NCBI GenBank assembly: GCA_021325315.1
Contig: JAJPHK010000036.1
Location: 1 to 34,016, forward strand
DNA length: 34,016 bases
Direction of reading: 5' to 3'
DNA from: Alphaproteobacteria bacterium
Lineage (GTDB): Bacteria > Pseudomonadota > Alphaproteobacteria > Rhizobiales > Xanthobacteraceae
The translations under genes were made by a program, and so were the position numbers. Shown here in pieces: positions 5,684 through 18,756 of this stretch; positions within the stretch are counted from its first letter, which is position 1; every line of letters starts with the position of its first letter. The notes beneath the pieces are model-generated. The model worked only from the letters and a program-made list of their open reading frames with translations, had not been told where the DNA came from and did no database searches.

Positions 5684-6073
5684 CTAGTTCGCGGCTTCGA
5701 CGACGTACTGCCGAATTATTTTTATTGCCTTGTCACGCTGTGGCAAAAGATCCTTCTCAGCTTTCCCATTGAGAAATGCCACCGCTTGGTCTAGGCTGTC
5801 CCATTCGGTAATGGCGATATGCTTCGGCGCCTCGCCCACGACCCCAACAATCCTTCCGACAGTGGTGCGCAAATTGCGGCCGCCAGCCGTCTTCTGCGCA
5901 TTCGCAACGAGCGGCCCAAAGACCTTCAGGGCTGAGGCATCGATCACTTCGAGTTCGGTGATTTGGTAGGCCTTTGGCTTGGCTTGGGCGTGCAGTGCCT
6001 CAATACAAGAGCCAGCTGCACCTAGTGCGGTGCCAGCAACGGCCGCCAGTACGATCTGCAGCTTGTAATTCAT
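5684..6073 (-). CDS. DUF1330 domain-containing exported protein
   Basis: 129 aa: signal-like N-terminus, then 'KAYQITELEVIDASALKVFGPLVANAQKTAGGRNL...ITEWDSLDQAVAFLNGKAEKDLLPQRDKAIKIIRQYVVEA', the DUF1330 pattern. Confidence 0.82.
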   Translation of the reverse strand: MNYKLQIVLAAVAGTALGAAGSCIEALHAQAKPKAYQITELEVIDASALKVFGPLVANAQKTAGGRNLRTTVGRIVGVVGEAPKHIAITEWDSLDQAVAFLNGKAEKDLLPQRDKAIKIIRQYVVEAAN

Positions 6074-6228: not shown

Positions 6229-6264
6229 AAGCCCCGGACAATACGTCCGGGGCTTTTGCTTTTC
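6229..6264 (+). terminator. Strong hairpin plus T-tract, oriented for + strand transcription
   Basis: 'gccccggac-aatac-gtccggggc-ttttgctttt': perfect 9-bp stem, 5-nt loop, T-rich tail. Confidence 0.8.
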
Positions 6265-6299: not shown

Positions 6300-7061
6300 T
6301 CAGTTCGTCGCTAGCGCAGTAAATGCCCGCTTGAAATCGTCCAGCGTTTCGTCGGGCAAATCCGACACGGCGACATAAGTGAAATGCGCGTCGCGCCAGG
6401 TTTTGACGTGGTAGCCGGAGATGCTGCCGCCTGGAACCTCGCGCAGGCCCAGCAAGGTCGTTAGACTGATCGTATGCCGCCCACGGCGATAAACGACCGA
6501 GGCGACCGGATCGCCGGCGACAACGTCAATTCGCGCGCCCACAAGGGTAAATCCGCTGCCGCCGAGATCGACCACGGGCGGAGATTCGGGCAGCTTCGTT
6601 GTAAACCAGGGCTTGATCGTGTGGCGATCGGAGGAGGCGACATCGAACGGCTTTTCCGCGAGCAGGCTGCGAATGTGGTTCGACACCACAAAAGTTTCGA
6701 TCTCCTGGCGGTTCGTCTGTTGTTGCAATCCGATGAAGGTCCCGGTGCCGGAAAGTACAGCGCCAACCAGCGCCGCCGCGGCAAGCGCGCACCAGGAGTT
6801 TTTGCGCGCGGGACTAGCTCGCTCCGGAATTGGCCGATCAATCGCGGAAGTTACTTTCGCACGCAGCCGTTCTAATGGCACATCGTCATCGGGAATCGAG
6901 CGGATCAGCCGCCGCAGCGACAAGATTGCCTCGTATTGCGCCCGCAGTTCGGGCTCCGATGCGAGCCGCCGTTCCAGTCCCGACACCGACGCGGGATCCA
7001 GCTCTCCGTCGGCGTGGGCCTGCAGAAGCAGACGGTCCTCGTCGCGAATGGGCGACATCAT
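6300..7061 (-). CDS. Anti-sigma factor, membrane-anchored
   Basis: 253 aa: N-terminal 'LLLQAHADGELDPASVSGLERRLASEPELRAQYEAI...LRRLIRSIP', one central TM segment 'WCALAAAALVGAVLSGTGTFIGL'. ATGA overlap with the upstream ECF sigma gene. Confidence 0.85.
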   Translation of the reverse strand: MMSPIRDEDRLLLQAHADGELDPASVSGLERRLASEPELRAQYEAILSLRRLIRSIPDDDVPLERLRAKVTSAIDRPIPERASPARKNSWCALAAAALVGAVLSGTGTFIGLQQQTNRQEIETFVVSNHIRSLLAEKPFDVASSDRHTIKPWFTTKLPESPPVVDLGGSGFTLVGARIDVVAGDPVASVVYRRGRHTISLTTLLGLREVPGGSISGYHVKTWRDAHFTYVAVSDLPDETLDDFKRAFTALATN

Positions 7062-7732
7062 ATCGAGCCCCTGATCGCTTGCGAGAGAATTTCTCTCGCG
7101 CGGGAAAGCCGCGACATCACTGTACCGACGGGTGCGCCTATGATTTCGGCGATTTCCCGGTAACTCAGATCCTGCATTTCGCGCAGCACGATCACCTCCT
7201 TGAACGGAGGAGGGAGAGCGTCGATCGCGGCGCGAACTGTCTCGGTATCGGTGCGAGACAATAGCACCGTTTCCGGGGTCGATATTTCGTGATCGTTTTC
7301 CTGAGGACTCTCGAGCCGAGCCTTTTCGTTGTGGTCGAGATCCTCGGTGAAAACCACCGCCGCCGGACGGTTCTTCAAGAGCCAGCTATAGGCCGTGTTG
7401 CGCGTGATCGTCAGTGTCCAGGCGCGTGCATTGATGCCACCAAAACTCTGAATTCCGCGATAGGCGCGAAGCGAGGCCTCTTGCACGATATCTTCTGCGT
7501 CGGCGCCGTTTCCCGCGAGCCAGCGCGCGAGCCGATAAGCTTGCGCAAGATGCGGCAAGAACACTTCGTTAAAGAGCCGGCGTCTTTCCGCCTCGTCCAC
7601 GGCGATTTCCGACGTTGCTTTCACGCCAACCGTTTCAACGGTAACGCGCGGCAAGCCATTGCCGCGCGTCCGTTGAGGTGCAGCGCCAAGCTGCATGACG
7701 GAAAAAGCAGACGAGGTCAAAATTACCGTCAC
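7058..7732 (-). CDS. ECF-type RNA polymerase sigma factor
   Basis: 'ARWLAGNGADAEDIVQEASLRAYRGIQSFGGINARAWTLTITRNTAYSWL' (region 2) and 'ALPPPFKEVIVLREMQDLSYREIAEIIGAPVGTVMSRLSRAREIL' (region 4). GTG at 7732 overlaps the cupredoxin stop; the true start may be downstream. Confidence 0.92.
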   Translation of the reverse strand: MTVILTSSAFSVMQLGAAPQRTRGNGLPRVTVETVGVKATSEIAVDEAERRRLFNEVFLPHLAQAYRLARWLAGNGADAEDIVQEASLRAYRGIQSFGGINARAWTLTITRNTAYSWLLKNRPAAVVFTEDLDHNEKARLESPQENDHEISTPETVLLSRTDTETVRAAIDALPPPFKEVIVLREMQDLSYREIAEIIGAPVGTVMSRLSRAREILSQAIRGSI

Positions 7733-8082
7733 GGCATCACGATGATTTTACCTTTCATATGCGGGTGCAGCCCGCAGACGTAGTCGTAAGTGCCGGTCTT
7801 GCTGAAGGTATATGAGTAGGAGCCGTTGGTATCGAAGGCCTGCGAATGGAACAGACCATTGCTCTCTACGATCGAGTGCGGAATATCGTCACGGTTTGTC
7901 CACGTAACCGTTGTGCCGACATGAACCGTCAGTGCTTCGGGCGCGAAGGCAAAATTGTCGATTTTGACATCCGCCTTGCCCGCAGCCCTCGCGCGCGATT
8001 GAAAGACTGCCGCGGCGAGAACGAGCGACGCGAGAGAAAGCCGCGCGAAATCGCGCCGCGTGAAGATCGCCTTCATTTTCAT
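7729..8082 (-). CDS. Tat-exported cupredoxin (plastocyanin/pseudoazurin-like type I copper protein)
   Basis: Tat motif 'TRRDFARLSLASLVLAAAV'; 'APEALTVHVGTTVTWTNRDDIPHSIV...FSKTGTYDYVCGLHPHMKGKIIV' carries the His...Cys-x2-His-x2-Met copper ligand pattern. Confidence 0.92.
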   Translation of the reverse strand: MKMKAIFTRRDFARLSLASLVLAAAVFQSRARAAGKADVKIDNFAFAPEALTVHVGTTVTWTNRDDIPHSIVESNGLFHSQAFDTNGSYSYTFSKTGTYDYVCGLHPHMKGKIIVMP

Positions 8083-8098
8083 TCTCCAGATTCTTGGC

Positions 8099-9049
8099 TC
8101 AACCCGCCAAAGTCGAGTCGATGATGGCGAGTTGCTTTTTGCCTTGCTCGATCTTGACGCTGGTGAGTCCGAGCACGCTGCGAAGTTTCTCGGCGGGAAC
8201 CAGCATCGGCCCGGGCGAGGGCGCGCTGCCCGGCGCGGGTTGCGGGAACGCCGTCGATCTCGCGGTGTGGAAGGTCATGTTACCTTCGACCTTCTGGATG
8301 ATCTGGTGAATGTGCCCGTTCAACACGGTGACGGAGCCGAAGGGTTTCAGGAGTTCGAGCGCGCGCGTTCCGTCTTGCGTACCCCAGCCCCATTCGGGAT
8401 AGACCACCCAGAGGGGAATATGCGCGAAAACGACGATCGGCGTGCTGTTCGGTTTCCCGCGGAGGTCGTCCGCAAGCCACGTCAGTTGCGCTTCGCCAAG
8501 ATTGCCGAGGCCGCCGCCTTTGAGATCGACGACGTTCACAAGGCCGATGAAATGTACACCGTGATCGTCGAAGCTGTACCAGCCGTCGCCTTTTGTGCCT
8601 TTGCCGTAGCGGTCGAGATAAGCCTTGCCGCGGCCTTCATCGATGATGTCGTGCTCGCCGGGCACATAGCGGACGTCGAGGCCCGCTTCCGAAATAACCT
8701 GGTTAGCGTCATCGAATTCGGCCGGCTTCGAGAGATGCGTGATGTCGCCGGTGTGAATCATGAAGGCGGGGCGCTCTTTTATCGCCTTCACTTTGCCGAT
8801 GGCCTCTTGTAGTGTGCTGAGCGCGTTCGGATTCGCGGGCTTGCTGAAACCGATATGGCTGTCGCTGATCTGCAGGAACGAGAAGCCTTTGGACTCGGCC
8901 GCAGCCGCTTCGCCTACCAATCCGATGGATTTCGGTACGCCGCCTGAAAGCGTCCAAAGGACGCCCGTACCCGCCCAAATCATGCATTCCAGCGCATGCC
9001 TGCGGTCGATACCGCTGTCTTCGTCGTGTTTCGCCATACCGGCCTCCAT
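8099..9049 (-). CDS. Metallophosphoesterase, probably exported (Tat-like leader)
   Basis: 'FLQISDSHIGF', 'FMIHTGDITH', 'YVPGEHDIID', 'VVFAHIPLW', 'VLNGHIHQI' match calcineurin-like phosphoesterase metal motifs. N-terminal 'DRRHALECMIWAGTGVLWTL'. Confidence 0.9.
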   Translation of the reverse strand: MEAGMAKHDEDSGIDRRHALECMIWAGTGVLWTLSGGVPKSIGLVGEAAAAESKGFSFLQISDSHIGFSKPANPNALSTLQEAIGKVKAIKERPAFMIHTGDITHLSKPAEFDDANQVISEAGLDVRYVPGEHDIIDEGRGKAYLDRYGKGTKGDGWYSFDDHGVHFIGLVNVVDLKGGGLGNLGEAQLTWLADDLRGKPNSTPIVVFAHIPLWVVYPEWGWGTQDGTRALELLKPFGSVTVLNGHIHQIIQKVEGNMTFHTARSTAFPQPAPGSAPSPGPMLVPAEKLRSVLGLTSVKIEQGKKQLAIIDSTLAG

Positions 9050-9124: not shown

Positions 9125-9696
9125 TTACCGGGGGCGGGATGCGAGTGGCAGTTTTTCGAACAACAAAGGCTCGTCCGAGAGCTTTGCGCCTTCGATCGTG
9201 AGCAACCGGAGTTTTGTCTTTACGCCGCCGCTGCCGGAATAACCGCCCGGCTTGCCGTTTGCGGCGAGCACACGATGGCATGGGATGATCAAGGGAATCG
9301 GATTTTCCCCGAGCGCCTTGCCCACGTCGCGGGCCGCTTGGGGTTCCTTGCCGAGCTTCGCGGCGATTTCGCCGTAGTCATGACGGCGCCGCGGGGAATG
9401 GCGGAGGTGATTCTGTAAACGCGGAGATTGAATTCCGGCAGCGCCTTGATGTCGAGCTTTGTATCCGAAAAATCGGCGTCCTCGCCGTTCAAAAGTGCGA
9501 CGATTTTACCGATTGTTGCGGCGATCTCCGGAGAGGGCGAAGCTTCGCGCCCCCCGCGGAAGCGCTTTTGCATACGTGAGCGGGTTCTGCCTTCGGTTGC
9601 CTCCGGCAGTTGCACGCCGATGATCCCGTAATCGTTCCATACGATGCCGCATGGGCCGATTGCAGTGTCGAAAATCGCAAAGCGCTGTGCCATCAT
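9125..9696 (-). pseudogene. ogt: Methylated-DNA--[protein]-cysteine S-methyltransferase (Ogt/MGMT family), interrupted by a -1 frameshift near 9376-9377
   Basis: N-part in ORF 9289..9696 ('...FNLRVYRITSAIPRGAVMT') and C-part in ORF 9125..9325 ('VGKALGENPIPLIIPCHRVLAANGKPGGYSGSGGVKTKLRLLTIEGAKL', with the PCHR active-site motif). They join in one frame (MT-YGEIAAKLGKEPQAARDVGKALG) if one base is added. Confidence 0.9.
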
Positions 9697-18603: not shown

Positions 18604-18756
18604 TTTTTCCTCCCAGAAATTTTTTTGACGGACCTGGTCTGAGAACAGGCGGATGCAATGATTATTCCCTTTCCGTCTTCATTCTAGTAGTACGCTGGTG
18701 CGCAGCGCACACAAGACAGCAATGCGGTATCTGGACACTTTCTAAGGGAAAGATTC

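Follow-up and report, generated by a model that had tools for sequence, protein, structure and literature searches.

The four genes that lie head to tail on the minus strand at 9049-6300 of the window (the whole 34,016-nt stretch of Xanthobacteraceae DNA that was analysed) raise the question of how an ECF sigma factor and its anti-sigma factor relate to the two exported proteins encoded with them, a metallophosphoesterase (MPE) and a cupredoxin. The initial annotation had read the cluster as a candidate signalling unit in which the exported pair was either the output or the input. The gene coordinates that it gave were confirmed (Table 1), as were the 16-nt gap between the MPE and cupredoxin genes and the GTGA and ATGA overlaps that follow. 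Pfam agreed with the identification of the phosphoesterase, the cupredoxin and the ECF sigma factor; the anti-sigma yielded no Pfam match of its own and a weak one in NCBIfam, and the majority of its relatives have a zf-HC2 match.

Table 1. Coordinates of the genes and sequence features of the locus, numbered as in the window.
Feature	Position	Strand	Basis or description
Predicted ECF-type promoter	9105-9078	-	-35 GGGAAT 9105-9100, -10 GAGTCT 9083-9078
MPE gene (calcineurin-like phosphoesterase)	9049-8099	-	Pfam PF00149
Cupredoxin gene (type I, blue copper)	8082-7729	-	Pfam PF13473/PF00127
ECF sigma gene (regions 2 and 4), true start uncertain	7732-7058	-	Sigma70_r2/r4_2
Perfect hairpin between cupredoxin stop and conserved sigma body	7637-7674	-	11-bp inner stem, 4-nt loop, outer pairs
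Anti-sigma gene, membrane-bound product	7061-6300	-	weak NCBIfam 'antisigma' match, model
Terminator-like hairpin 3' of anti-sigma gene	6229-6255	.	11-bp stem; T-rich tail best on plus strand

Conservation and boundaries of the gene set

An MPE alignment scanned against 84,980 species genomes returned at least 536 relatives, and the analysis was continued with the best 80. The cupredoxin gene adjoins the MPE gene in all 80 of these best relatives, a sigma gene accompanies the two in 79 and an anti-sigma gene in 76, nearly always in the order seen in the window, and a comparison of the genes around them revealed no conserved operon gene beyond the four. Because these loci had been picked by MPE similarity, a second MPE search was run over 399 Pseudomonadota genomes drawn evenly across the phylum. 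The MPE was found in 16 of them (about 4%), each time with an adjacent cupredoxin gene, and the sigma and anti-sigma genes lay within 1.5 kb of it in 13 of the 16. The initial annotation would have given up its proposal had the sigma/anti-sigma pair been absent beside these two genes in other genomes; the pair is indeed present there, in both samples. Conservation of the cluster in the 80 relatives and in the 399-genome draw thus argues, at the level of gene neighbourhoods, that the linkage of the four genes is real and not due to chance.

The set recurs in Burkholderiales and Gemmatimonadota. Plasmid or megaplasmid records of Caballeronia, Burkholderia stagnalis and Gemmatirosa carry all four genes, and a Cupriavidus record of this kind carries the set without a detected cupredoxin; in the plasmid and megaplasmid loci the MPE-cupredoxin and sigma/anti-sigma pairs are divergent or convergent. 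Each pair also occurs apart from the other. Related sigma/anti-sigma pairs with neither MPE nor cupredoxin nearby were found at five loci (L122-L126), and Streptomyces and Mycobacteroides retain the cupredoxin-MPE pair. A Mycobacteroides abscessus plasmid (L115, 512-5906) has genes for a molybdopterin oxidoreductase, an ECF sigma factor, a Rieske protein, the cupredoxin and the MPE close together; it looks like an actinobacterial equivalent of the module in which the regulators differ, its ECF sigma factor being unrelated to that of the window.

The start of the sigma gene at 7732 is uncertain, since the first ~45 residues read from it are poorly conserved and a perfect 11-bp hairpin lies inside this part. 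The distance from the cupredoxin stop to the start of the sigma match is 26-137 nt in most relatives, so that the GTGA overlap may be confined to the window's genus. The hairpin (inner stem at 7644-7669; z = -4.1 for the 131-nt stretch) has a single copy genome-wide, and stems of at least 9 bp at the cupredoxin-sigma junction were seen in 7 of 77 relatives, vs 1.3% of control stretches. A role as a conserved attenuator was rejected, as few relatives have such a hairpin, and this lack of general conservation suggests that it is probably not essential.

Terminator-like sites are as numerous in the region as expected from shuffled sequence. Downstream of the operon, past the terminator-like hairpin, a small secreted DUF1330 protein is encoded at 5684-6073 (minus strand), probably as a separate unit. 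Directly upstream of the MPE gene lies what was recognised by eye as a gene for an Ogt-like methylated-DNA cysteine methyltransferase with a PCHR motif (9125-9696, minus strand); it appears to be frameshifted into two overlapping ORFs.

A promoter motif ahead of the exported pair

The motif GGGAATAA-N15-RRTC[T/A] was found upstream of the MPE gene in all 80 relatives, with near-fixed spacing and 50-136 nt ahead of the MPE match; among random stretches taken from this DNA, 1.9% match a strict regular expression of it. When a weight matrix was trained on the 80 relatives, the window being excluded, the predicted window promoter, ~29 nt upstream of the annotated MPE start and in the position that the motif occupies in all 80 relatives, obtained the top score in the 34 kb on both strands (11.8 bits, a score expected by chance 0.2 times per window and 4.5e-4 times per 150 nt of one strand). 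It is a diverged copy, with TT instead of AA after GGGAAT, and scores low against the 28 bits of the promoter of a genus neighbour (L002).

The distribution of the motif bears on the direction of control. Where the two pairs are divergent (L012, L117, L121, L143 and L156), it stands before both units, the MPE-side copy of L117 being weak. MPE-cupredoxin pairs with no sigma gene nearby usually still have it; the motif scores 31.0 bits at the B. multivorans pair and 29.0 bits at that of B. cenocepacia, and neither has a related sigma gene within the 10 kb searched. The actinomycete relatives have the pair without a GGGAAT-type promoter. As the motif occurs before the MPE gene, before both split halves and in the absence of a nearby sigma gene, the MPE and the cupredoxin are, from this comparative evidence, most likely the output of a self-activating sigma unit.

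A search of the window's own genome for GGAAT-N17-RRTCT gave 20 matches, vs an estimated ~22 by chance, and only the one in the window combines the complete GGGAAT with a clear promoter position. Elsewhere in this genome (L100, C89:51413-51439, minus strand), GGAATTTCGCCGTCTGCTCGCCGATCT, which differs little from the window promoter, precedes a gene for a secreted protein and marks at most a candidate further target. Within the window, two secreted alpha/beta hydrolases are encoded at 18603-16349 (minus strand), the first preceded by a weak ECF motif at 18668 (8.5 bits, 0.5 expected). This second motif was absent in both homologs found, too few (n = 2) to judge its conservation, and marks a possible second target. 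On a Mesorhizobium ciceri plasmid (L124, 3577 and 5547), a related sigma/anti-sigma pair has the motif before itself and before DUF680 genes, and the wider sigma family thus seems to have swapped outputs.

The mapped ECF26 promoters of S. meliloti, GGAATAAGCGAGGCAGCTCGCTCGTCT for rpoE4 and GGAATAAATCCATAGCCCTCCGTGTCT for the rpoE1 operon, have the form GGAAT-N18-GTCT (PMC6180224). The N18 spacing and the elements of the relatives' motif match them, and the promoters of the window and of all 80 relatives are of the GGAAT-N17/18-GTCT type.

The four products

The MPE matched PF00149 with an E-value of 2.2e-12 and passed its gathering score (48.2 vs 21.5 bits); its nearest solved structures are GpdQ and Rv0805, class III cyclic-nucleotide-type phosphodiesterases, and its structure could be modelled with low confidence only (mean pLDDT 69). 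It is a predicted exported, calcineurin-like metallophosphoesterase with a Tat-type leader and a GpdQ/Rv0805-like fold. It shares with Enterobacter GpdQ and with Rv0805 this fold and most metal ligands (D63, H65, D102, H210, H246 and H248), and differs from them in its predicted export, in its sequence (~20% identity) and in a metal motif changed throughout the family, GEHD (E132) instead of the canonical GNH[D/E] in 111 of 112 family ORFs. This replacement of Asn by Glu may alter the metal preference, or may alter or abolish hydrolase activity.

Both exported products had been credited with Tat leaders. That of the MPE held (RRxxLEC in 60 of 65 MPE leaders); for the cupredoxin, a Tat-like RR was found in only 19 of 71 family members, and Tat export is therefore doubtful as a family trait. 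The MPE leader is almost invariant as RRxxLECMxWAGTGxLWT, its Cys and two Trp included, which is unusual for a merely cleaved leader, and a role in anchoring or docking may be the reason why it is retained.

The cupredoxin matched PF13473/PF00127 at about 1e-11 and is nearest in the PDB to amicyanin and to nitrite-reductase cupredoxin domains. The His/Cys/His/Met copper ligands noticed initially are present as H69, C103, H106 and M109, and the C-x2-H-x2-M loop is found in 71 of 71 relatives. By its sequence it is a small exported type I copper protein, amicyanin/plastocyanin-like. It shares with amicyanin this loop and the upstream His ligand; unlike amicyanin, it lies below the equivalog cut-off of TIGR02657 (62.6 vs 110.2 bits), and its operon is devoid of methylamine dehydrogenase genes.

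The sigma factor matched Sigma70_r2/r4_2 at about 1e-15. Its best NCBIfam match by far is PRK12533 (NF009185), at 196.3 bits and thus below the cut-off of 248. Promoter and gene layout suggest ECF26 membership: the anti-sigma gene lies downstream of the sigma gene and its product has one TM segment in the model, an order and topology that fit the COG5662-type arrangement of ECF26. The sigma sequence itself is hardly closer to S. meliloti RpoE6 (37%, E 3e-19) than to enterobacterial RpoE (34%, E 4e-19).

Profile comparison placed the anti-sigma near RsiW (1.7e-4) and RsrA (3.6e-3). Its model consists of an N-terminal anti-sigma domain, a long TM-containing helix (90-134) and a periplasmic domain (146-251), in agreement with the single TM segment initially proposed. 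The H-x3-C-x2-C zinc motif is absent in the window protein and present in 38 of 70 relatives; zinc-thiol redox sensing is unlikely as a general mechanism, about half of the family being without the motif. On the periplasmic side, no variation was seen at D145, H147, P151, W152 and H196, and very little at H129 and K150. The patchiness of the zinc motif beside these invariant residues points to sensing by the periplasmic domain, not by a zinc-thiol switch. The nine best PDB matches of this domain in Foldseek are all RseB or MucB, with a probability of 1.00 and E-values from 1.6e-3 to 2e-2 (about 2e-3 for the best two, none below 0.001), over partial alignments of ~80-120 columns, and no Pfam RseB match was found in the anti-sigma. 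As the structural match is partial and no E-value falls below 0.001, we treat it as a strong hint that the modelled domain is RseB/MucB-like.

Output, input and related systems

Taken together, the locus is probably one autoregulated ECF sigma/anti-sigma operon with the exported MPE and cupredoxin as its output, a reading that we hold with good confidence on comparative grounds. The proposed signalling unit was thus supported, and of its two versions the promoter evidence favours output, with autoregulation. At rest, the sigma factor would be held by the anti-sigma at the membrane. Perception of a signal by the RseB/MucB-like periplasmic domain would free the sigma factor, probably via stepwise proteolysis, and the freed sigma factor would read the GGGAAT-N-GTCT promoter before the MPE gene, so that the whole operon would be transcribed, giving more sigma factor, its own inhibitor, the metallophosphoesterase and a blue copper electron carrier. 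The pairing of sigma factor with promoter, the proteolytic release and the task given to the exported pair are what we infer. As to function, we tentatively suggest a small envelope repair or protection response, in which the MPE would act on an extracytoplasmic phosphodiester and the cupredoxin would handle electrons or copper. A more specific version is rather improbable: an envelope-damage circuit whose anti-sigma has a built-in RseB-like sensor and in which the redox state of the GEHD MPE would be served by the cupredoxin.

The exported proteins share an operon and a compartment with the anti-sigma, and its conserved H129, H147, KPWF and H196 could bind a metal or a partner. They might thus (also) be input, as accessory regulators touching the periplasmic domain and tuning sigma release, in the way that RseB and MucB act on RseA and MucA. 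We consider this unlikely: the B. multivorans and B. cenocepacia pairs keep the promoter apart from any related sigma gene, and the sigma/anti-sigma pairs L122-L126 stand without MPE or cupredoxin, so that output fits better than input; feedback by the exported pair is possible and compatible with the output reading. The same periplasmic histidines, together with a type I copper protein among the output, could also speak for a copper-stress unit, in which they would sense periplasmic copper and the cupredoxin would buffer or oxidise it. This is less probable still, for no copper exporter, oxidase or chaperone was evident among the conserved neighbours as read from their sequences, blue copper sites are more often electron carriers than copper stores, and the phosphoesterase would be left unexplained. 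That two independent units, the sigma pair and the exported genes, merely happen to adjoin, a general caution for operons read from a single genome, was refuted by the survey and is practically negligible, given conservation over orders, classes and phyla, in several arrangements and with promoters in common.

A sulfite or thiosulfate response is suggested by analogy with S. meliloti RpoE4, the targets of which are the sulfite dehydrogenase gene sorT, a cytochrome c gene and azu2, for a pseudoazurin. Its regulon, too, has a blue copper protein, and its promoter spacing is identical (PMC6180224; PMC3511301). The neighbourhood of the Mycobacteroides pair, with its molybdopterin oxidoreductase, Rieske protein and ECF sigma gene, would fit such a response. 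By contrast, the genes conserved around the 80 loci, as read from their sequences, include none that resembles one for a sulfite-oxidising enzyme, the RpoE6 anti-sigma (the one compared) resembles that of the window in its N-terminal domain only and has a different periplasmic domain without KPWF, and ECF26 members do not all respond to sulfite (PMC3511301). This response is therefore very unlikely here.

For the output reading, RpoE4 and its sorT-sorU-azu2 targets come closest among described systems. Like S. meliloti RpoE1 and RpoE4, whose anti-sigmas belong to COG5662, the present system probably has an autoregulated operon with a downstream one-TM anti-sigma, a GGAAT-N17/18-GTCT promoter, a blue copper protein as target and a small regulon (PMC3511301; PMC6180224); unlike that of RpoE4, its output is a phosphoesterase and an amicyanin-like protein. 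It shares with the control of RpoE and AlgU by RseA-RseB and MucA-MucB a membrane anti-sigma and, in the proposed scheme, periplasmic control, the domain concerned being RseB/MucB-like in the model; in the window, however, this part is fused to the anti-sigma and the operon has no separate RseB gene. B. japonicum EcfF/EcfQ was rejected as the present system, the paper giving other targets and neither a copper protein nor a phosphoesterase. We found no paper joining an ECF or other sigma factor, a cupredoxin and a (metallo)phosphoesterase in a search that covered only a minor part of the subscription-journal literature. The architecture is ordinary, but we came across no description of the output pair as a conserved unit, of the changed metal motif or of an anti-sigma with such an RseB-like domain.

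The MPE module is present in ~4% of the sampled Pseudomonadota, including Bradyrhizobium, Mesorhizobium and Burkholderia, and in part in Actinomycetota; Bradyrhizobium BTAi1, a laboratory strain, is among the carriers of the cluster (L075). Owing to the conserved promoter, reporter fusions would give direct access to both regulon and stimulus. The GEHD change makes the family useful for examining how metal sites vary across a very large superfamily of enzymes. The pairing of MPE and cupredoxin over phyla hints at an extracytoplasmic link of a phosphoesterase to redox or copper chemistry and, if the envelope-damage circuit were true, a phosphoesterase would be working with an electron carrier.
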